A stretch of 34,537 bases of DNA from NCBI GenBank assembly GCA_026129095.1, contig JAHCIT010000016.1, positions 1-34,537 on the forward strand, read 5' to 3'. A program made the position numbers and the translations under genes. Source of the DNA: Deltaproteobacteria bacterium (GTDB taxonomy: Bacteria; JAGRBM01; JAHCIT01). This document shows positions 10,540 through 28,543 of this stretch, piece by piece (position 1 is the first letter of the stretch; each line of letters starts with the position of its first letter). Below the pieces are notes generated by a model. The model saw only the letters and a program-made list of their open reading frames with translations. It ran no database searches and was not told the DNA's origin.

Positions 10540-10737
10540 GGTTCCCGTGCTCCCTGATGGTATCCGTGGAAGCCCGGGCCCGTTTTCCTTCTAAGGCCCG
10601 GTGGCCGGTTGTTAGGCCCCCCCAGCCGCAAAATCAAGCGCGAATTCAGCCAAGTCATGGCGCCGGGCACTGGCCGGAGCTATAGGCCCCTCCGGAAGGT
10701 CCGGGTCACGCCGGAACCCGGACAGGAGCCATCCAGT

Positions 10738-12828
10738 TTGTTCGACCGGTTCTTCCAGATTCTCCAGGAACAGCCGCCTGGTGTGCTCATCGGGATGATC
10801 GTGGGTGTGCTGCTGGCCTGCGGCTTGGGACTTCCAATGCCCGAGGATATCATTCTCGTAACGACGGGCTATCTGGCTTATCTGGGCAAGCTGGACATGC
10901 GCCCCGCGATTTTCCCGGCACATCTGCCTCAGGGGCTGGCGCTGGGGATTGTGGCGACCTTCGCTGGTGTGATTGCGGGGGATTCGATCATCTTCACTCT
11001 GGGTCGCCGGTTCGGCCCGCATATCATCGAGTTTCCGCTGATCCGGAAGATCGCCACCCGTGAACGGGTGGAAGCCGCGGAGTATTATTTCGAGAAGTAC
11101 GGTACCCGGTTCATCTTCGTGGGCCGGTTCATGGCCGGCGTGCGGGCGCCGATGTTTCTCACGGCGGGTATTCTCAGGGTGCCCTACCGGAAATTCATCC
11201 TCTATGATGGCATGGGCGCGCTGATCAGCGTTCCGCTGCTGGTGTACGCCGGTTACTACTTTGGCGAGGATATCGACCGGGCGTTTCATCTGGCCCGCGA
11301 GGCGCAGCAAACCGTCCTGTATGTGCTGGCCGCCGCAGGGGGCTTTTTCGGACTCCGGTACCTGCTTCGTGCAACCGGTCTGCTGGGCGAGCGGGTTCTG
11401 GTGGAACCGGCCGCCCGGAAGTTCGAGGCCGAGCATCCGGTTCCGGACGGACATGTTTACTTTCCCGGTGAAACCGGAGGCGGAAAGGATCGAAAGGCGA
11501 TGAGCATTTTCAAGGCGTACGACATCCGGGGTGTCGTTCCTGACGAACTGAACGAGGAACTGGCAGGCCGTATCGGGTCAGCAATCGTAGATTACCTGAA
11601 GGTGGACCGGATTGTTGTGGGCCGGGATGTGCGGACTACAGGCGAAACGATTTTCAACGCCTTTGCCGGTGGAGCCCGCCTTCGCGGCGCCGACGTATAT
11701 GACATCGGCCGGGCGACGACGCCGCTCCTCAATTTTACGGTGGGTCAGCATGGCTTTCCGGCGGGTGTGATGATTACCGCCAGCCACAATCCGCCGCGCT
11801 ACAACGGGTTCAAGATATGCCGCGCGAATGCAGTGCCGGTTTATGACAGGGAAATAAGGACCATCGGCGAGATGGCTACCGCCGCCGGGGCGCCAGCCGC
11901 AGCAGCCAAAACTGGCAGGCTGATCCCTTTCAGCAGCCTCGACGAATATTATGGCAAGATCCGGGGCCGCGTCCGGACCGGCGGCCGGCGCCTGAAGGTG
12001 GTCGTGGACATGTCGAATGGCGCTGCCACCACCATCACGCCTGCGTCCCTGAAAGATCTCCCGCACGACATCGTGGTCATCAATGGCGATCCGGATGGAA
12101 CATTTCCGAACCATGAGCCCGATCCGCTGAAAGAGGAAAACCTTGAACAGTGCCGCCGCAAGCTGATTGAACTCGGTGCCGACATGGGGGCCGTATATGA
12201 CGGTGACGCCGACCGGCTGGTGTTTCTGGACGAAACGGGACGGACGGTAACGGGTGACCTGACGACGTTGCTCATTGCACTGGACATGATCGGCGGCCGG
12301 AAGGGCGAACTGGTGCTTTACGATGTCCGTTCTTCCTGGGTAGTCCGTGAGGAGCTGGAAAAGGCGGGGGCGCGCTCGGACGTCTGCCGGGTAGGACATG
12401 CCTTTATCAAGACGGCCATGCGTGAACGGGATGCCCTGTGCGCCGGCGAACTGTCGGGCCACTACTACTTCCGTGACAACTTCTATGCCGAAAATACCGA
12501 TCTGGCCCTTGTCCTCATGCTGAACCAGCTGGCTTTTTCCGCAGAACCCATGAGCCGGATCGTGGGCCGTTATCGCCGGTACCATGCTTCGGGGGAGATC
12601 AATTCGGAAGTGGCCGATAAAGCAGCTATTATCGCCAGCATAAAGGAACGTTACGGCAAGGCTGGCAAGGTAACCGAGGTAGATGGCCTGACAGTGGAGT
12701 TTGACGACTGGTGGTTCAACCTTCGGGCATCGAACACTGAATCGTTGCTCCGGCTGAATGTAGAGGCCAAGGCCCCAGACCGGCTGGAAGAAAAGACCCG
12801 GGAGCTGTTGGCGCTGATCCGGGGGTAA
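10738..12828 (+). CDS. DedA-family membrane domain joined in frame to phosphomannomutase/phosphoglucomutase
   Basis: One uninterrupted frame encodes two proteins' worth of sequence. The first part (10738-11499, about 254 residues) is a DedA/SNARE-associated membrane domain, with GLPMPEDIIL, AGDSIIFTLGRRFG and FVGRFMAGVRAPMFLTAG. This is the family of lipid-carrier scramblases. The second part begins at a possible ATG (11500) and is a full phosphohexomutase of about 440 residues: catalytic serine S95 in TASHNPPRYNG, metal loop DGDADR (234-239), GELSGHYYF sugar loop and the phosphate-binding RASNTES (numbered from 11500). The TTG at 10738 has GGAG 9 nt upstream and fits the DedA N-terminus; an ATG at 10657 lacks a ribosome site. 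The +1 frame ends in TGA overlapping the ATG at 11500 (ATGA), so a one-base error could have fused two normal genes. Confidence 0.85.
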   Translation: MFDRFFQILQEQPPGVLIGMIVGVLLACGLGLPMPEDIILVTTGYLAYLGKLDMRPAIFPAHLPQGLALGIVATFAGVIAGDSIIFTLGRRFGPHIIEFPLIRKIATRERVEAAEYYFEKYGTRFIFVGRFMAGVRAPMFLTAGILRVPYRKFILYDGMGALISVPLLVYAGYYFGEDIDRAFHLAREAQQTVLYVLAAAGGFFGLRYLLRATGLLGERVLVEPAARKFEAEHPVPDGHVYFPGETGGGKDRKAMSIFKAYDIRGVVPDELNEELAGRIGSAIVDYLKVDRIVVGRDVRTTGETIFNAFAGGARLRGADVYDIGRATTPLLNFTVGQHGFPAGVMITASHNPPRYNGFKICRANAVPVYDREIRTIGEMATAAGAPAAAAKTGRLIPFSSLDEYYGKIRGRVRTGGRRLKVVVDMSNGAATTITPASLKDLPHDIVVINGDPDGTFPNHEPDPLKEENLEQCRRKLIELGADMGAVYDGDADRLVFLDETGRTVTGDLTTLLIALDMIGGRKGELVLYDVRSSWVVREELEKAGARSDVCRVGHAFIKTAMRERDALCAGELSGHYYFRDNFYAENTDLALVLMLNQLAFSAEPMSRIVGRYRRYHASGEINSEVADKAAIIASIKERYGKAGKVTEVDGLTVEFDDWWFNLRASNTESLLRLNVEAKAPDRLEEKTRELLALIRG

Positions 12829-19734: not shown

Positions 19735-20484
19735 ATGGACCGGGTGGTGGCGGTTCTTTCGGTTGCGCTGGCCAATATACGGCAGCGCTACGCCACCATG
19801 TCCGGCGGTCTCATCTGGACCGTGCTCCGTCCACTGCTTCTGGCAGGAATCTTTACCGTCGTATTCGGCGGGATTTTTGGCGGTCGCAGCAGCTATGTGG
19901 TCTGGATGCTGTCGGGCTTTATTCCCTGGATTTTCACGGACGAGGCAGTCCGCAGCGGAGCCCGGACGTATCTCTCACAGTCGTCGCTTCTCAGAAGCCA
20001 CCAGTCGCACCCGGAACTGCTCGCGGCGATAAGCGCGGCCGAGGGCGCCATCCTGCTTGGGGCCGGCACGGGCGCTGTCTGGCTTGTCTATCTCGCCGGG
20101 GTCCGCCCGCTGTCGGCCAGTGATCTCCTCATTCCGCTGGCGGTGTTCGTGGCTTTTCTGACCATCTGGGGAGCCGTGCTCCTGGCGGCCCTTCTGGTGA
20201 CGGTCATCCGTGATCTGGAGCCGTTGATTGAGCCAGTCATGACCGTCGTCTTCTGGTCAGCGCCTGTTGTTTACCGGCCGGAGGTACTTCCCGTGAGGAT
20301 GAGGGTATTTCTGGAGTGGTGGCCCCCGGCCGCCTGGGCGCGTATCTGGCAGGCGCTGGTTGGCGAAGGGGCGATGCCGGTTTTGACCGATATTGCCGTG
20401 GCTCTGGGAACGGCTGCCGTCCTGTTGCTGTCAGGCCTGCTGCTGACCCGGTGGAGGGTGGCGCTCATTACCGACCGGGTGTGA
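19735..20484 (+). CDS. ABC-2-type glycan exporter permease (Wzm-like)
   Basis: The product has 249 residues, close to the usual 250-270, with six predicted membrane helices. Near the N-terminus it has the family-like segment RQRYATMSGGLIWTVLRPLLLAG, the coupling-helix region of Wzm permeases, and the later pattern YRPEVLPVRMRVFLEWWPPAAW resembles the NP..y.l..lNP..... stretch of that family. It would pair with the ATPase encoded 13 bp downstream to export an O-antigen, capsule or teichoic-type polymer across the inner membrane. The start is taken as ATG at 19735, where similarity begins; AGCGG lies close to it. The reading frame is open further upstream, in antisense sequence. Confidence 0.82.
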   Translation: MDRVVAVLSVALANIRQRYATMSGGLIWTVLRPLLLAGIFTVVFGGIFGGRSSYVVWMLSGFIPWIFTDEAVRSGARTYLSQSSLLRSHQSHPELLAAISAAEGAILLGAGTGAVWLVYLAGVRPLSASDLLIPLAVFVAFLTIWGAVLLAALLVTVIRDLEPLIEPVMTVVFWSAPVVYRPEVLPVRMRVFLEWWPPAAWARIWQALVGEGAMPVLTDIAVALGTAAVLLLSGLLLTRWRVALITDRV

Positions 20485-20497
20485 CGAAACACGCCGG

Positions 20498-21709
20498 GTG
20501 ATGGTGATGGACGCTATACTGGAATCCTGTATGGAACCCGCCACCGTTTCGATCCGGTCTCTCAGCAAATACTACCCGGCGGTGTCGGGGTTCGGGCATA
20601 ACATGCAGGCGCTCATGACCGGCCGCTGGCCGGTCACGGGCGGGGTGCCCGCTCTCGATGACGTCAGCCTGGATATTGCCGCCGGTGAGGCGGTCGGACT
20701 GATTGGCCGGAACGGTTCGGGCAAGACAACACTCCTCCGGCTCATTGCCGGCGTCTCGGCTCCCACCGGCGGGGAGATCCGGCTGCCCGGCCAGATCAGT
20801 TCGCTGATCGAGCTTGGCGCAGGTTTCTCGCCCCAGCTGGACGCGGTGCGGAATATCCGCCGCGAGTGCGCCCTCACCGGCCTCCCGGTCCGCTGGGCTG
20901 ACGCCCATATGGACCGGATACTGGGGTTTGCGGAGCTTCCCTCGGAGGTTGCCCGCCGCCCGCTGGGTACCTGGTCCACGGGCGAGCGGATGCGGCTGGG
21001 GTTTGCGCTGGCGGTGACCCGGCCGGCCAGCCTGCTGGTGATCGATGAGCTGCTGGCCGTGGGCGACGAGAGGTTTCACCAGCGGTGCCTTGAGACATTC
21101 CGCGATCTTCGCCGGGCCGGATGCACGGTGGTGCTGGCGAGCCATGCCCTCGGGCAGGTGCGGGCGGTCTGCGACCGGGTGGTGTGGCTGGAAGGCGGCC
21201 GGGTGAGGTCGCTTGGCCCGGCCTGGCAGGTTACGGAAGACTACCGGCGGGAAATGAGCCGGCTTCCGGAGCCTCCGGCAGATCAGCAAGAGTCAGCCAC
21301 GGATGCCCGGCGTGATTTCGTGATCGAGCGGGTCGTGATCGAGCCGGGGCTTGTGCCCCTGGGCTCGGCCATTTCCATCCGGGTTCAATACCGGGCCGCC
21401 CGCACCGTTGCGCGGCCGAACCTGGGCGTGGCGATTCACCGCGACGATGGTGTGCTCTGCTACGGAACATCGAGCGTGAAACTGGGTATCGAACGGGACG
21501 AGATGCCCCCGGGAACCGGTGTCGCGGAGGCGGTGATACCCGGCTGCCCGCTGCTTCCCGGCCGGTATTTCGTCACCGTCGCGCTTTTTGATGCCGATGA
21601 CGTGGTGAAATACGACTACCACGACCGGCGCTACAGCTTCACGGTCACGGGAACCACCCGCGATGACGGCGTGAGCCGGATCGAAATGCGCATGGACTGG
21701 GGCCGGTAG
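20498..21709 (+). CDS. ABC exporter ATPase with C-terminal sugar-binding-type domain (Wzt-like)
   Basis: The protein has about 400 residues. The N-terminal nucleotide-binding domain has Walker A GRNGSGKTT, Q-loop near SSLIELGAGFSPQ, signature STGERMRLGFA, Walker B LLVIDELLAVGD and H-loop ASHAL, in the form typical of O-antigen/capsule exporters. The insertion YYPAVSGFGHNMQALMTG before the core is also Wzt-like. From residue about 262 a beta-rich domain follows, matching the Wzt C-terminal carbohydrate-binding module that reads the capped end of the polymer. The start is uncertain: GTG at 20498, or ATG at 20501, 20507 or 20531. It completes a two-gene operon with the permease and converges with the SCP2-like gene, leaving 1 bp. 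Confidence 0.85.
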   Translation: MMVMDAILESCMEPATVSIRSLSKYYPAVSGFGHNMQALMTGRWPVTGGVPALDDVSLDIAAGEAVGLIGRNGSGKTTLLRLIAGVSAPTGGEIRLPGQISSLIELGAGFSPQLDAVRNIRRECALTGLPVRWADAHMDRILGFAELPSEVARRPLGTWSTGERMRLGFALAVTRPASLLVIDELLAVGDERFHQRCLETFRDLRRAGCTVVLASHALGQVRAVCDRVVWLEGGRVRSLGPAWQVTEDYRREMSRLPEPPADQQESATDARRDFVIERVVIEPGLVPLGSAISIRVQYRAARTVARPNLGVAIHRDDGVLCYGTSSVKLGIERDEMPPGTGVAEAVIPGCPLLPGRYFVTVALFDADDVVKYDYHDRRYSFTVTGTTRDDGVSRIEMRMDWGR

Positions 21710-21710
21710 C

Positions 21711-22193
21711 CTATTCCAGGGGCCTGCGCGTGGAGCGTATCTTCTGGCGGATTGCCGTCAGCGATCCCAGTCCCTTTCGTTTCAGGAACTCCATCATCGG
21801 CGGTCCACCGAGCCGCAGCAGCCCGAAATAGCCGTGCCGCCAGAGGGTCCACACCCCGGAGTGGATATTGCCCCTGACCTTGATCGCTGGGTCGTCGCTC
21901 GCGGCCATCTCCAGAATGCAGAGAGCATAGGCGGAAAGGGTTTCGTCCGTCAGCGACACGAGCCGTTCCGCGGCGGCATCCGGAACGGTAATGGTGAGGT
22001 CCACCGGCTCTCCCGCGTACGGGTCAAGCCGCGGCTGGCCGCGGTGAGCGGTAAACAGGTATTCACCGCCATGACCGGTCAGCCGGAGGCGCAGCGCGGC
22101 CCTGTCCGATAGCGGCGCGACCGCCCGCCGGGAGACTTCACGCTCCTCGAAAAAGGACTTCAGCCTCAGGTAAACGGGGCTGGCTGGTGTCAC
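21711..22193 (-). CDS. SCP2-like lipid-binding-fold protein
   Basis: The product has 160 residues. The middle (about 50-125) shows the SCP2 sterol-carrier pattern: GGEYLFTAHRGQPRLDPYAGEPVDLTITVPDAAAERLV, then AIKVRGNIHSGVW. By family knowledge this fold holds lipids or acyl-CoA in a hydrophobic tunnel, and bacterial single-domain relatives assist quinone or lipid metabolism. The GTG at 22193 is chosen since GCCGGAG is 5 nt upstream and it overlaps the preceding stop codon as GTGA (22190-22193). It is thus the last gene of the radical SAM operon. A longer frame to 22259 is possible but would lie entirely inside the preceding gene. Confidence 0.7.
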   Translation of the reverse strand: MTPASPVYLRLKSFFEEREVSRRAVAPLSDRAALRLRLTGHGGEYLFTAHRGQPRLDPYAGEPVDLTITVPDAAAERLVSLTDETLSAYALCILEMAASDDPAIKVRGNIHSGVWTLWRHGYFGLLRLGGPPMMEFLKRKGLGSLTAIRQKIRSTRRPLE

Positions 22194-24064
22194 GGCAACT
22201 CCGGCGTCCCGGCGGCCTGAAGCACCTTCCCGCAGGAAGTCAGGTACCCGCCATCCCATGACTTCAGGCGGAACGGTTCCGGCAGGTTCTCCAGCCAGTA
22301 GGGACCGGATTCCAGTTCCTGGAAGAACTGGTCGAACGGCCGGATGTAGGGAAGCGGCTGCGAGAGGTAGTCCTCCGTGTAGTAACGGTCCAGGACGGCC
22401 GCATGAAAATCCGGATGCCGGCGGCAGAACGATGCCGCCCCCGCTGCATCACGCGAATACAGGAACGCAAGGGCCTCAAAGGTCCGTTCTTTCATGATTG
22501 GCCACGTGACCGCGCTGATTGGCGAGGCACTGGTATAGGAAATGTACACAGACCGGAGGCCGTACCCCATAACGCAATCGGCCGCGTAAGGATGAGTGAC
22601 GATCATCGTGTCGTTCGGAAGTTGGGCAGCAGTTTCATACAGGGAGACATCCTCACACCTGGTATGATCCCACAGGGGACCGGCGGCCGCTGTCAGGGCG
22701 ATGACCCCGATCGCGGCAGCGGGCAAAGTCTTCGGAAACGGGATCAGACCCGCCGAAACGGAATGGCGGATCGTGTGTGCGAACATGAGCGAGAGGCTGA
22801 CCGGGAAGAAGTAGCGGAACTGGTGGGGGGCATAATAGAAGCGGATGCCGACGATCGGGTGCGTGAGAAACACAAACGCCGTCATGAACAGCGCCGAGAG
22901 GAGCAGGATAAGGGCAATCCGGTCGGTTACGGGAGGCGGGGCGGAGAGACGGAGCAGGATAAGCCAGAGCGCCGCGAGCATGGCGGTTCCGGCCATCGCG
23001 CCCAGCCTGCCGCCGGCGACCAAAGCCAGCAGCAGCCCCGCCACGGACAGGAGTCCGGCCGCTCTTGTCCACCTCGCGGCTCCGTATCTCCCGGTCCGGT
23101 GGCGCGAACGCGCATGGAGGCCGCACAGCACGGCGAGGACGAGGGCGAGGGTGAGGTAAGGGGCCGTCTCTGGCGTGATGGGCCGCCGCGAGTAGAACAG
23201 GAGCTGGGCGATGAAATCCCAGGAAAAGACGTATGAGGGCGTGTGGTCAATGAGCACCTGGACCGGATGGCCGTGTCCGCCCGGCCCGAACTCCGGCCGC
23301 TGGAATATTTCGTCATAGGATGGCGTCGAATAAACCTGCCGCTCCGGAGCCCACACGTAACCAATGGCAAAAGCCAGAAGAAACGAACCCGCGATGGCGA
23401 GGCCGCCCCGGACGGCCTTTCCGGTATCGCGTCCGGGTGCAGTGATGAAATCCGAGATCGCCACTGAAAGGCCGGTCAGCAGCATCACTGGTGCGAGAAG
23501 CGCATAGGAAAAAATGGTCAGGAAGATGACCGCTCCGGCGGCAGCCCAGGCCCGCCGCTGGAGCGCCGTGATGTACAGGAGCGTGAGCGGCAGGGCGAAC
23601 ACCCGCCAGGACCCGGTGTAGAAGTAGTGCCAGCGGCAGAGAAGCAGCAGAATTGCCACGGCCAGCCAGGCGGTCTTCACGTCCCGGCAGGCCCGGAACG
23701 TGTAGTGGAAAAGAAGCACACCTGCCAGCGGGATCAGGAGGAGCGGCAGCAGTTTTGACAGGGTCAGGGGATGGACGAATGGGAACAGAATCCCATACAG
23801 ATAGACCGCGCCGCGGGGTGCGTACGCGATGAGCGTATTTGCCGCCAAATCGTCTGGGAAAATATCTGGATTAACGCCCTGTGCCAGATAGGCCATGACC
23901 AGCGAATCGCCTTCGATCTGGTAGGGGTCACTAAACAGCGGATACTGGAAAGTGGCGGCGATTACCGCAGAAAACAGAAGTGCACAATAATAGTGGGTGT
24001 TCAGACTATCCGGACGACGTTGTATGTTATGTTGGAGTGCAGCCCTGACAATAATCTTCGTCAT
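22190..24064 (-). CDS. Polytopic membrane protein, possible GT-C-like glycosyltransferase
   Basis: The product has 624 residues with about twelve hydrophobic segments spread through residues 25-470 and a soluble C-terminal domain (475-624). The first loop has acidic residues followed by GVNPDIFPDDL, and the C-terminal region includes a segment like the periplasmic domain of GT-C enzymes (FDQFFQELESGPYWLENLPEPFRL). No specific family is certain. The ATG at 24064 is preceded directly by an in-frame stop and has no strong ribosome site. The first 40 codons have lower GC than the rest of the gene, continuing the composition of the radical SAM gene beside it. It sits in an operon between that gene (43 bp upstream) and the SCP2-like gene. 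Confidence 0.6.
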   Translation of the reverse strand: MTKIIVRAALQHNIQRRPDSLNTHYYCALLFSAVIAATFQYPLFSDPYQIEGDSLVMAYLAQGVNPDIFPDDLAANTLIAYAPRGAVYLYGILFPFVHPLTLSKLLPLLLIPLAGVLLFHYTFRACRDVKTAWLAVAILLLLCRWHYFYTGSWRVFALPLTLLYITALQRRAWAAAGAVIFLTIFSYALLAPVMLLTGLSVAISDFITAPGRDTGKAVRGGLAIAGSFLLAFAIGYVWAPERQVYSTPSYDEIFQRPEFGPGGHGHPVQVLIDHTPSYVFSWDFIAQLLFYSRRPITPETAPYLTLALVLAVLCGLHARSRHRTGRYGAARWTRAAGLLSVAGLLLALVAGGRLGAMAGTAMLAALWLILLRLSAPPPVTDRIALILLLSALFMTAFVFLTHPIVGIRFYYAPHQFRYFFPVSLSLMFAHTIRHSVSAGLIPFPKTLPAAAIGVIALTAAAGPLWDHTRCEDVSLYETAAQLPNDTMIVTHPYAADCVMGYGLRSVYISYTSASPISAVTWPIMKERTFEALAFLYSRDAAGAASFCRRHPDFHAAVLDRYYTEDYLSQPLPYIRPFDQFFQELESGPYWLENLPEPFRLKSWDGGYLTSCGKVLQAAGTPELP

Positions 24065-24107
24065 TCAGTCAGCACTAAAATGGTTCATAGGTGCGGGCTT
24101 TTGTAAC

Positions 24108-25628
24108 TTATGCGGCGAACTGTGTTTGGAGACGCAGAGGCCGGTATAGTTCGGCAGGCAGCTTGTAAGCGAAATAGTTACTCACAGCACCTTCTTCGGT
24201 ATCCTGCTTCAACAACATATTTGGCAGTCGGCCTTTGAATGCAAAAGACAGGATTGCTTCAGGAATAATCCGTATCAGTTCTGGCCGAATATACATTTTC
24301 TTGAGCAGATGGCCCACATAGGCTGGCCGGAGGTAATAGCGCCGAGTGAACTCCTGCCGAAGCCGGTAAAGCTCCTTGGTGGGAATATGGGGCGTCTTTA
24401 CAGTTGCTTCACGTATGTTGAAATGGTCCGTATCGTCTGTCAGCAGCAGCCCTTGTTCATCAACCTGCCGCCGGAATTCCGTTCCTGCAAACGGTGTGAC
24501 AAAAAACACGCCAAGCATATCGATTGGTTGTTTCAAGAGCCACTGGAATGATTTTTCGAGTGATTCTGGGGTATCCCAAGGAAATCCTATAATCCAGCCA
24601 CCCGATATGGTGATACCCTTGTCGGCTATCATGCGGAGGGACGCAGATGCCTCTTCAATATCATAGTGCTTTTTCATTTTAGCTCCCCGCTCGGTGTCAG
24701 TGGCTTCAAGCCCTAATACCATATAACGGGATCCGGCAGCGTACATCGTGTCCACTAATTCCTTCGACATGTCATCTACCCGCGCAAAGGAACCCCAGCG
24801 CAAACTCTTTTCCATGCCCCGACGCACTATTTCATTGCAGATTTCCACGACCCATCGCGGACGGACCGTGAACTCTTCATCACGAAAGAAAACATTATTT
24901 ACTCCATAATTATTTGCGAGATGCTCCAACTCATCAACTACTGATTCCGGAGTCCGGCTGGTCCATGCGCTTCCCCACAGCGCCGGTGTCTGGCAGAAGG
25001 TACATTTGTACGGGCAGCCCCGCGAGGCCTGTACGGAGAGAAACCGTGATTTTTTTACTGGATGGGTCAGCATTGCATGGAATTGGAACTGGTTGATCGG
25101 AAGGCCTTCCCGCATAGGAAACGGTATGCTCGTAATGCGTTTGATCCGGGTGCGGCGTTCAGTTGCCTGGTAACCGTCTCGGGTCTTGTACGCGATCCCT
25201 TGTACTTCCTCGATCTGCATCTTGCCTTCAAAACAGTCCAGAACTTCCAGGATCGTTTCCTCGCCCTCGCCAATGACCACGCAATCCACGGCCGGGTCGA
25301 GTATCGCGGAGGGGTCGCCGGATACGTGCCAGCCGCCATAAACCACCTTGCATCCGTATCGGGCTTTGACCGCCCTAGCGAACTCCAAGCCGTTCTTGAA
25401 GTTTTCCGTCATGGCGGTAAACCCGACCACGTCAGGCTGAAACTCGTCTAGCTCGGCGAACAGCCGTCGGGCATCCTCCACTTTGGAATTGAACATGTCC
25501 CGTATCCGGACATCATGCCCTGCATCGCGGCAAACGGCCGAGATATAAGCGAGCCCCAGTGGTTCCATCCATACGGACACATCGACATAGCTAAAATTTG
25601 ACGGCGGATTGATGAAGAACAGTTTCAT
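24108..25628 (-). CDS. B12-binding-domain radical SAM protein
   Basis: The protein has 506 residues. Residues 1-135 form a cobalamin-binding Rossmann-like domain (FINPPSN, VVGFTAMTENF, VVYGGWHVSG, VVIGEGE). The radical SAM motif CxxxCxxC is C205, C209 and C212 in ASRGCPYKCTFCQTP, followed by a TIM-barrel with GGWIIGFPWDTPESLE and a C-terminal extension of about 120 residues. Enzymes of this class (the B12-radical SAM methylases and BchE- or HpnJ-like ring-forming enzymes) methylate or rearrange unreactive carbons, often of lipids. AGGTG overlaps the stop of the upstream radical SAM gene. By hand count 24121-24300 is about 46% G+C, against about 59% in 25981-26160, which suggests transfer from another source. 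Confidence 0.9.
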   Translation of the reverse strand: MKLFFINPPSNFSYVDVSVWMEPLGLAYISAVCRDAGHDVRIRDMFNSKVEDARRLFAELDEFQPDVVGFTAMTENFKNGLEFARAVKARYGCKVVYGGWHVSGDPSAILDPAVDCVVIGEGEETILEVLDCFEGKMQIEEVQGIAYKTRDGYQATERRTRIKRITSIPFPMREGLPINQFQFHAMLTHPVKKSRFLSVQASRGCPYKCTFCQTPALWGSAWTSRTPESVVDELEHLANNYGVNNVFFRDEEFTVRPRWVVEICNEIVRRGMEKSLRWGSFARVDDMSKELVDTMYAAGSRYMVLGLEATDTERGAKMKKHYDIEEASASLRMIADKGITISGGWIIGFPWDTPESLEKSFQWLLKQPIDMLGVFFVTPFAGTEFRRQVDEQGLLLTDDTDHFNIREATVKTPHIPTKELYRLRQEFTRRYYLRPAYVGHLLKKMYIRPELIRIIPEAILSFAFKGRLPNMLLKQDTEEGAVSNYFAYKLPAELYRPLRLQTQFAA

Positions 25629-25636
25629 GGGTCACC

Positions 25637-27193
25637 TCAGGCAGCCTGGCGCTGTTTCCGGTTCAGGTTTGGGGGTTCCGAGTATGTGGCAGCGGCCGGG
25701 CTGAAAAAACGCTTCAGCCCCAGATGATGCGCGTAGTGCTTGAGGTAACGGCGAACCATGGCTTCCTCATTCGCTCCGCTGCGGTTCAGCATCCGCGAAA
25801 TGGCATAGGAAACACCCATGAAACCGAATGGCGGCAGGAACCGCCAGAGCCGCCGGTCGAGAATTGCGTTCAGGGTTTTCTTCGGCAGCACCTTGATGAG
25901 AACAAACAGGTTGTAGAACTGCCGCGACATCGGCGAGGGGTTGTACCCGCCGGTCATGACCGACCCCAGTCCCGCGCCCGCATCCAGCGATCTGACGTCG
26001 GTGTCGCTGAGGTAGCCCATCTGCCGGGCCGTCTCCACGATCTCCGTGTTCGGGTAGTAGCGGAGCCAGTAGAACTTGATCACATCGGGACGGTGCTCAT
26101 TGTAGAACCGGGCCATCTCCACGAGATCGTCCTCGGTTTCGCCGGGCAGGTTAACGATGTTCTCCGCGGCCACAGCCACCCGGTTGGCCCGGAGCCGTGC
26201 AAACGCGTCCCGCACCTGGTCGTTGCTTTCCCCGCGGTTCAGGATCGCCTTTTTCTTGCCCGCCTGGGTCGAGACCGACTGCACACCCATGTCCACCTTG
26301 ACGCAGCCGGAACGGCCCAGCAGTTCGGCGCGCTTTTCGTTCACCATGGACGGATAGACGCAGCACATGTAGGGGATGCCGATTTCCTTCTCGTAGCGCG
26401 GGGCGAACTCCTCGAACCACTTCATGCCGACGGCGAATATCTCGTCGTAGAAGTTGACGACCACCGGCCGGTAGACCGTCTTTGCCCATTTGAGCTCGGC
26501 GATCACGTCGTCAACCGAACGGGCCCGCAGGTAGTTGTCATCGCCTTCATACACGCGGTGCAGGAGGTTCGAGTTGCAGAACGAGCATTTGTACGGACAA
26601 CCCCGGCTCGTCATGATCGTATAGACGTCGGACGGATAGAGCCCCGTATTCTCGTACATCGTCTTGTCTGCCCAGGGGATGGTGTCGAGGTCGCGGATCA
26701 GCGGACGGGGTTCGTTGACCCGGATGCGGCCGCCCTCGCGGATGACGAGGTTGGGCATGTCGGGCCGGACCTTGCCGCGCCCGATGGCGTCCACCAGCTC
26801 GACAATCGCCTCCTCGCCCTCGCCCCGCATGGCGAAGTTGCAAAAGGAGTTGGCGGCGAGTGTTTCTTCCGGCGCGCTGGTGACGTGGATGCCGCCAGCG
26901 ATGATCGGCACGCTGGAAAGCTCGCGGATCCGCCGCCCCACCTCCTGGAACCAGGGGTATTCATCGGTCACGACCGAGAAGGCGACGATATCCGGGTTCC
27001 AGTCCACGACGGACCGGGCGACCTGGGCGGTCCGGGCGAACCGGCGCGCAAGGAACGGGATGCGCACGAAGGCGTCGTCGAACAGTTGCGGGTCATAGAA
27101 AAGCCGGGTCTCGTGTCCCTCGCGCTTGAGCACGGCCGAGAGATACTCGACCGCGAGGCTTTCATAGGCTGGGTATACAAACGCGATTTTCAT
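25637..27193 (-). CDS. B12-binding-domain radical SAM protein
   Basis: Taking the ATG at 27193, the product has 518 residues. A cobalamin-binding domain lies at about 1-135 (MKIAFVYPAYES, VVTDEYPWF, IIAGGIHVTSAPEE, RGEGEEAIVELV). The radical SAM cysteines are C199, C203 and C206 in TSRGCPYKCSFCNSN, followed by the barrel pattern ENIVNLPGETEDDLVE. It is a different member of the same broad group as the next gene, sharing little identity, so the pair are not simple duplicates. Both belong to the same operon (8 nt apart). A start at 27289 would add 32 unconserved residues. Its GC is close to the window average. The reaction cannot be assigned from sequence alone. Confidence 0.9.
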   Translation of the reverse strand: MKIAFVYPAYESLAVEYLSAVLKREGHETRLFYDPQLFDDAFVRIPFLARRFARTAQVARSVVDWNPDIVAFSVVTDEYPWFQEVGRRIRELSSVPIIAGGIHVTSAPEETLAANSFCNFAMRGEGEEAIVELVDAIGRGKVRPDMPNLVIREGGRIRVNEPRPLIRDLDTIPWADKTMYENTGLYPSDVYTIMTSRGCPYKCSFCNSNLLHRVYEGDDNYLRARSVDDVIAELKWAKTVYRPVVVNFYDEIFAVGMKWFEEFAPRYEKEIGIPYMCCVYPSMVNEKRAELLGRSGCVKVDMGVQSVSTQAGKKKAILNRGESNDQVRDAFARLRANRVAVAAENIVNLPGETEDDLVEMARFYNEHRPDVIKFYWLRYYPNTEIVETARQMGYLSDTDVRSLDAGAGLGSVMTGGYNPSPMSRQFYNLFVLIKVLPKKTLNAILDRRLWRFLPPFGFMGVSYAISRMLNRSGANEEAMVRRYLKHYAHHLGLKRFFSPAAATYSEPPNLNRKQRQAA

Positions 27194-27345
27194 CGTCAAA
27201 TATCGGTTCCTGGACTCCGGTTCTGCCGGTTTTCCACCGCCGGTTTTCCGGCCACTCGACGGCTCTTGTGTGAGGGATAAGTCTATCATGCTCCGGCGGG
27301 GACTGCACCCCTCAAAGGCTGCTGAATCCCAATAAAATAGGGCAG

Positions 27346-27385: not shown

Positions 27386-28543
27386 TCACTTCACCGGGGA
27401 TTCAGTCCGTTGACGGAAAAGGGCGGCCGTTTCGGCTGCAAAAATGATCCCCGTCAGTACGGTTGCGCCGAGCAGCACCTCTTTGGCGAGGAAAAGCTCC
27501 GGCCGGAACTCCCCGGCCAGCCAGAAAGCGGCGATGATTACGGTGAGCCATCCTGTTGCCGCCGCCGGGTGAGGCCGCCAGTGAACACACGCGCCGATGA
27601 TTGCGCCAGCCCCGGCGCCCCAGACGAGACGAACCGCCGCCGGGTATCCCCCGTTTCCGGAAATGACGAATGCGAGGAGGCCGGAGACGGTCAGGAGCAG
27701 GGTGGCCAGTGCGGTGGCAGCAGAAAGGTGCCGTGGAAGGAGGGCGACGAGGACGGCGATGGCAAGAATGGTAATAGCCGGTTCCCGCCACAGGCTGATG
27801 TCCTGCTCCATGTAGGCATGACGAAACCCGATGCCGGTGGGTATGAGGTGCATCAGCATAACGGCGGAAAGAATGGCTGCTACCGGCACCATCATTCGCA
27901 GTCTGAATGGAAGCGAAGCCACCGGCGCCGCAGGCGGGGTGGCCCCGTCCTGTATCCTTGCCGCGGTGAGATAGCCCGCCGCAAGCAGCAGGAAGGCCAG
28001 CGCGGACACGGCGGCGCTGCCAAGCATGAACGGGCGAAAATCGTCGGTTGCGAACATACGGAGGGGCGTCAGGAACTGGCCGGCGAGGAAGGTTCCCGCC
28101 AGCCACGCGGCCGGAACCGGGAGGCGTTTCAGGAGGCTCGGCCGGCCGCCTGCCTTGAAGGCGCGATGAGCAAAGGCCAGTACGGCAAAGGACGCGCCAC
28201 GCTCAAAACAGAGAACCAGGACATGGACATCACCCGGATGGCTGGCAACCAGAGGCATGAGCCGGAGGGCCGGAACCGCCAGCGCGGCCAGAACCGGACT
28301 GGCTCCGCGGTCGCCGGGAACCAGAGCCACCATCGCCTTCCACATGAACAGTCCGGAGATGCACCAGCAGGCAACGGCGGCTGCAATCGTTGGGTCTGCC
28401 GTGAGGGGACTATGAAGCTGGTTCAGGCTTTGACCCTCTGCGTACCATGAGCGGACCGAAACGGCGAACCACAGCCCCGCCACGCCTTCCAGGAGGGCGA
28501 ACATCATCAGCAGGATTCCAGAGGTGGCGGACCGGAGGCTCAT
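27386..28543 (-). CDS. Polytopic membrane protein, unknown function
   Basis: The product has 385 residues with about ten hydrophobic segments, few charged residues between them and no recognised catalytic motif. The segment AYMEQDISLWREPAITILA marks a possible extracytoplasmic loop. The ATG at 28543 has no strong ribosome site. It is divergent from the PilZ gene, with 182 bp between them. I do not recognise the family and no functional context stands out; it may be in the same direction as, but not part of, the radical SAM operon. Confidence 0.6.
   Translation of the reverse strand: MSLRSATSGILLMMFALLEGVAGLWFAVSVRSWYAEGQSLNQLHSPLTADPTIAAAVACWCISGLFMWKAMVALVPGDRGASPVLAALAVPALRLMPLVASHPGDVHVLVLCFERGASFAVLAFAHRAFKAGGRPSLLKRLPVPAAWLAGTFLAGQFLTPLRMFATDDFRPFMLGSAAVSALAFLLLAAGYLTAARIQDGATPPAAPVASLPFRLRMMVPVAAILSAVMLMHLIPTGIGFRHAYMEQDISLWREPAITILAIAVLVALLPRHLSAATALATLLLTVSGLLAFVISGNGGYPAAVRLVWGAGAGAIIGACVHWRPHPAAATGWLTVIIAAFWLAGEFRPELFLAKEVLLGATVLTGIIFAAETAALFRQRTESPVK

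Follow-up and report, generated by a model that had tools for sequence, protein, structure and literature searches.

The window studied here is one whole contig of 34,537 bp (JAHCIT010000016.1) from a 3.67 Mb Deltaproteobacteria bacterium genome that is 96.65% complete. Its minus strand carries, in a row, genes for two cobalamin (B12)-binding radical S-adenosylmethionine (SAM) enzymes (rSAM1 and rSAM2), a polytopic membrane protein (MP) and a small SCP2-like protein. We tentatively interpret these four genes as a lineage-specific, anaerobic-type operon that tailors an envelope lipid or a lipid-linked glycan, an explanation that we favour without calling it probable. In the following G stands for a genome, C for a contig and L for a fetched locus. 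G000 is the genome of the window and G001 a sister genome from the same phylum and a different family, available as a fragmented assembly. Searches at the family, order, class and phylum level returned G001 as the sole other genome of the phylum in the collection.

Organisation of the locus

rSAM1 occupies positions 25637–27193 of the minus strand (518 aa from the start at 27193, in an open reading frame (ORF) that opens at 27289) and is followed on the same strand by rSAM2 at 24108–25628 (506 aa), MP at 22190–24064 (624 aa) and the SCP2-like gene at 21711–22193 (160 aa). The gap between rSAM1 and rSAM2 measures 8 nt and comes with a Shine-Dalgarno-like stretch (GAGGTGA), rSAM2 and MP are 43 nt apart, and the GTG start of the SCP2-like gene at 22193 overlaps the MP stop codon in a GTGA junction. 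Judged by this spacing, the four genes probably form one operon and are read as one transcript. A Wzm-type ABC-2 permease (19735–20484, 249 aa) and a Wzt-type ATPase (20498–21709, 403 aa) on the plus strand converge with them, and 1 bp separates the Wzt stop from the SCP2-like stop. On re-reading the sequence we found all six ORFs at the positions given in the first-pass annotation, and its account of the three junctions and of the 1-bp convergence was likewise correct.

Radical SAM enzymes

The B12-binding domain (PF02310) and the radical SAM domain (PF04055) exceed the Pfam cut-offs in both enzymes, with E-values of 1.8e-18 and 1.5e-18 for rSAM1 and of 2.2e-23 and 1.6e-18 for rSAM2, which confirms the earlier call of two B12-radical SAM enzymes. 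The CX3CX2C cluster motif lies at residue 199 of rSAM1 and residue 205 of rSAM2. Many B12-radical SAM enzymes hold cobalamin base-off, without a histidine ligand (review, PMC13331322). The DxHxxG motif is absent from the sequences of rSAM1 and rSAM2, and in this they resemble other base-off, and not the His-on, members of the class (PMC13331322).

We compared both enzymes to the NCBIfam equivalog models. rSAM2 scored best against BchE with 187 bits, followed by HpnR (162) and HpnJ (152), whereas the respective cut-offs are 481 (TIGR02026), 650 and 578 bits. rSAM1 reached 99.5 bits against BchE and 93 bits against a ladderane-type model with a cut-off of 360. No NCBIfam equivalog thus reached its cut-off for either protein, and the models do not place them in a known unrelated pathway, the outcome that the first-pass annotation had named as fatal to its proposal. 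rSAM2 does share the domain order of BchE, HpnJ and HpnR, B12-binding followed by radical SAM, and aligns with them along most of its length. However, it scores far under the equivalog cut-offs, it is separate from the reference sequences in our tree, and no hpn or bch genes neighbour it at the window locus. An assignment of rSAM2 as BchE, HpnR or HpnJ was therefore rejected.

In the radical SAM tree (81 rows, support from the Shimodaira-Hasegawa-like approximate likelihood ratio test, SH-aLRT) rSAM2 clusters solely with two tandem copies from G001 at a support of 100. rSAM1 groups with homologues from G258, G121 and G384, also at 100, and apart from rSAM2. As the two enzymes fall into separate clades, they did not arise by a recent duplication. 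The class includes methylases as well as ring formers and ring contractors (PMC13142503), and because its members carry out such varied reactions the chemistry of rSAM1 and rSAM2 cannot be read from their sequences.

Further genes of this kind were encountered elsewhere. Four more B12-binding radical SAM genes stand in tandem on one strand of G000:C9:43649-51035 (L015:5650-13036), each coding for about 590–630 aa with a C-terminal extension, and at least two genes similar to this array lie together on contig C571 of G001. In the window itself, about 190 nt upstream of rSAM1 and on the same strand, positions 27386–28543 encode a protein of 385 aa in which about 10 segments are hydrophobic and to which Pfam assigns no family.

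Membrane protein and SCP2-like protein

Hydropathy gives MP about nine transmembrane (TM) or hydrophobic segments. Neither Pfam nor NCBIfam contains a matching family, a profile of five sequences found no match among the solved structures in the PDB, and the AlphaFold model, computed from the single sequence without an alignment, had a predicted local distance difference test (pLDDT) score of 43, too low for a structure search. The residues D53 and D72, near the first loop, are invariant across five homologues; enzymes of the glycosyltransferase C (GT-C) type have 7–13 TM helices, the first of which is followed by acidic residues. Outside the phylum, 14 genomes have an MP homologue. In three of them (G363, G192 and G069) a glycosyltransferase family 2 (GT2) gene adjoins the homologue, accompanied in G363 by an LPG_synthase_TM gene. 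A GT2 gene beside the homologues would fit a GT-C enzyme that uses a polyprenyl-phosphate sugar; MP is probably a sugar transferase and a candidate for the GT-C type. The earlier label of a GT-C-like protein is weaker than first put forward: it draws on topology, invariant acidic residues and the neighbours of the homologues, and Pfam, NCBIfam and the PDB lend it no support. The MP-family gene of L095:8811-13783 is followed by a GT2 gene, a 542-aa gene and an LPG_synthase_TM gene, an order that seems to be repeated in L100 (G192).

For the SCP2-like protein the agreement with the named family is weak and consistent. It scores 12 bits against PF02036, for which the gathering cut-off is 21.3. 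Four of nine members of its own family match SCP2 weakly (best E-value 0.0053), and the top PDB match of the family profile is an SCP2 protein with an E-value of 0.08. We thus keep the description as SCP2-like for its agreement across the family, and not as a Pfam assignment. The single-sequence AlphaFold model, again without an alignment, reached a pLDDT of 39 and could not be used for a structure search. Two homologues along the whole length were detected, a paralogue in G000 (G000:C9:81486-81953, 39% identity) and a gene on contig C458 of G001 (36%), both of which stand among unrelated genes. The copy in the operon looks like a recruited duplicate of the stand-alone gene, and its product may bind lipid.

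Genomic neighbourhoods and the exporter

A survey of 386 genomes returned an rSAM1 match at E ≤ 1e-45 in 49 of them. At 17 rSAM1-family loci we counted 84 neighbouring genes, among them 25 radical SAM genes (16 with a B12 domain), 10 GT2 genes, 4 PMT_2 genes and 4 methyltransferases. A list of 25 families for 84 control genes contains none of these four types. The comparison is a rough one, as the control genes were not drawn at random but taken from loci fetched for other proteins. Genes for polysaccharide deacetylases, PIG-L proteins and epimerases also neighbour members of the rSAM1 family.

In the sister genome G001 the rSAM1 homologue (35% identity, contig C436) has a methyltransferase and three membrane proteins of the PMT_2 type as neighbours. 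The two tandem rSAM2 homologues (51% and 49%, contig C121) share their surroundings with genes for a UbiA prenyltransferase, a polytopic protein of 555 aa and a further radical SAM enzyme. Given the GT2, PMT_2 and UbiA genes beside the rSAM1 family and the G001 copies of rSAM2, an action on a membrane lipid or a lipid-linked glycan is plausible. The rSAM2/UbiA cluster (L028:2095-8699) ends beside ParA/ParB-like genes. A minus-strand ORF follows the rSAM1 homologue on C436; its initial reading as a polysaccharide deacetylase found no Pfam support and was dropped.

More distant relatives, rSAM2-like at 27% and rSAM1-like at 29%, are found in glycan clusters on plasmids such as Solidesulfovibrio carbinolicus pDCAR1 and Lawsonia pl03. 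These clusters contain glycosyltransferases, epimerases, methyltransferases, a SIS isomerase and sugar kinases. They have relatives of rSAM1 and rSAM2 in common with the window, and they differ from it in having more sugar enzymes and no annotated SCP2-like gene.

In the convergent exporter, Wzm matches PF01061 with 29.7 bits (cut-off 26.9), and Wzt combines PF00005 (4e-19) with a C-terminal Wzt_C domain of the glycan-recognition type (PF14524, 5.3e-18). The exporter with a sugar-binding domain that had been reported earlier is thereby upheld. The pairing of a permease and an ATPase with Wzt_C is that of the Wzm/Wzt exporters of O antigens and lipid-linked glycans. In contrast to those systems, no glycosyltransferase or nucleotide-sugar gene, and hence no glycan assembly cluster, was found around the pair among the Pfam-scanned proteins of the partly annotated window. 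The pair is convergent and outside the operon; a link between the two is only a possibility, and a dedicated export of the operon product, which had also been proposed, is not supported.

These observations could also be explained by an unusual sugar or glycan, in which case the radical SAM enzymes would modify a sugar (by a methyl branch, deoxygenation or ring contraction), MP would add it outside the membrane, and Wzm/Wzt would export the backbone. The GT2, PMT_2, epimerase, polysaccharide-deacetylase and PIG-L genes beside rSAM1-family genes agree with this, as does Wzt_C in the adjoining exporter. For pentofuranose side chains, the combination of a UbiA protein, a GT-C enzyme and an ABC-exported O antigen is already known (PMC11127046), and the UbiA gene and the polytopic membrane protein beside the G001 rSAM2 copies can be compared to it. 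MP resembles the GT-C component of this three-component extracytoplasmic glycosylation (GT-C, UbiA-type donor synthase and flippase) in size and topology. However, MP matches no named GT-C family, neither a donor synthase nor a flippase was identified in the window, and the UbiA protein of G001 has no close solved homologue. Since the scanned window proteins also include no nucleotide-sugar enzyme or cytoplasmic glycosyltransferase, and an SCP2-like protein is better suited to a hydrophobic ligand, we consider a sugar as the substrate rather unlikely, if still worth weighing.

Association with Tes/TrsS-like genes

The three closest relatives of rSAM1 (46–49% identity; G258, G121 and G384) each have a Tes/TrsS-like radical SAM gene immediately upstream (L131:9097-11977, L132:8220-12511 and L133:1079-5370). 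The Tes/TrsS-like copy of G121 matches the tetraether synthase structure 7tol with an E-value of 1.4e-52, and for the copy of G258 we observed 58% identity. In G121 and G384 a second B12-radical SAM gene lies downstream of the rSAM1 orthologue; it has a 41% relative in the genome of the window (C6:72055-73485) and is not orthologous to rSAM2. A more distant rSAM1 homologue in G315 (30%) adjoins another Tes/TrsS-like gene. Tes-like genes at E ≤ 1e-25 were present in 8 of 17 rSAM1-strong genomes compared to 2 of 40 others (Fisher p ~0.0005), a difference that is confounded because rSAM1-strong genomes are generally rich in radical SAM genes.

Both G000 and G001 encode a squalene-hopene cyclase. 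In G000 it is located on C2 at ~506489–508558, at the boundary of L092 and L093, with an E-value of 2.6e-110 and the motif DCDDTA; in G001 it is found at L094:2534-4501. The presence of this enzyme points to a polycyclic triterpenoid, which both organisms likely make. No hpn-like genes were recognised beside the cyclase when its surroundings were inspected by eye.

These findings could point to a modification of the membrane core lipids, with rSAM1 as a ring former or C-methylase of lipid tails that would act on a hopanoid or fatty chain, similar to what has been proposed for the tetraether or membrane-spanning lipids of bacteria. The placement of the closest rSAM1 relatives and of the G315 homologue, the higher frequency of Tes-like genes in rSAM1-strong genomes, the 41% relative of the second enzyme and the squalene-hopene cyclase all fit such a function. 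Nevertheless, neither G000 nor G001 has a Tes-like gene (the best hits, at 4e-12 and 2e-12, are confined to the radical SAM core), and the gene next to the rSAM1 relatives scores 216 bits against TrsS, more than the 198 bits against Tes, and reaches neither cut-off. With the co-occurrence confounded and rSAM1 itself far below the ladderane-type cut-off, we regard this alternative as unlikely and did not accept the window as a Tes cluster. The roles of the bacterial Tes and GrsA homologues were untested as of two surveys (PMC8941075, PMC11868695). The tetraether lead concerns the rSAM1 clade and does not explain the window.

Conservation of the gene set

Several points weigh against a lipid- or glycan-tailoring operon. 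In G001 the genes homologous to rSAM1, rSAM2 and the SCP2-like protein lie in three unrelated places, no homologue of MP was found there, and the four-gene set was found in no other genome examined. The operon status is based on gene spacing, the SCP2 assignment stays under the Pfam cut-off, neither a named family nor a solved structure matches MP, and the controls of the neighbour count were of the selected kind described above. The first-pass annotation had named unconserved neighbours in other genomes as an outcome that would refute it, and this is the outcome in G001, the single and fragmented close relative in which synteny could be checked. On contig C121, 172 nt lie between the first rSAM2 copy and the upstream contig end; a joining of C436 and C121 that would place rSAM1 and rSAM2 side by side was rejected, as the contig ends share no overlap and the minus-strand ORF mentioned above comes after rSAM1 on C436. 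When genome contigs were scanned with rSAM2, one match came back, which was irrelevant (36% along a short stretch), and the papers listed in literature searches yielded no relevant lipid system that combines SCP2 or Wzm with radical SAM enzymes. It seems that the organism of the window assembled the operon from parts that are separate in its relatives.

The missing synteny in G001 and beyond, the SCP2 homologues amid unrelated genes and the convergent exporter would also be expected if rSAM1 and rSAM2 were one unit of unrelated function (of the cofactor type or for ribosomally synthesised and post-translationally modified peptides) beside an unconnected MP, SCP2-like gene and exporter, but the tight and overlapping junctions on one strand and the enrichment of glycan and lipid genes around the rSAM1 family make such a chance neighbourhood quite improbable.

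In another part of the window, positions 10609–12828, a single ORF joins a VTT (DedA-type) membrane domain to a complete phosphoglucomutase/phosphomannomutase, a fusion that looks unusual.

Discussion

If the four genes are an operon that tailors an envelope lipid or lipid-linked glycan, its course could be as follows. rSAM1 and rSAM2 would each use a [4Fe-4S] cluster with SAM, for which the motifs are present, plus cobalamin, for which the domain is present. Acting on a precursor associated with the membrane, they would methylate its unactivated carbons, or cyclise or rearrange them. MP, if it is a GT-C enzyme, would transfer a sugar from a polyprenyl-phosphate donor onto the lipid or glycan, and the SCP2-like protein, which is paralogous to the product of a stand-alone gene, may bind or present the hydrophobic substrate. 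Wzm/Wzt would serve for glycan export in the same cell, possibly with a tie to the operon. The earlier proposal of the synthesis and export of an unusual modified lipid or glycolipid is in this way retained in part: the neighbour enrichment and the UbiA context speak for a modification of the glycolipid type, whereas a defined new pathway with its own exporter does not follow from the data.

In a bolder version, set in a phylum of which hardly any members have been sequenced, rSAM1 and rSAM2 would be two new cobalamin-radical-SAM lipid enzymes. They would add methyls, rings or cross-links to a lipid of the hopanoid, polyprenyl or fatty type, the SCP2-like protein would present this lipid, and MP would glycosylate it. 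We rate this version as very unlikely.

The enzymes that place methyls and rings in bacterial membrane lipids and glycans are known only in part. In several lineages members of the rSAM1 clade stand beside glycosyltransferases or a Tes/TrsS-like enzyme, and the clade offers a concrete and testable candidate for such a role. The combination of genes in the window is chiefly of interest because it hints at a possible coupling of lipid and glycan functions in this lineage.

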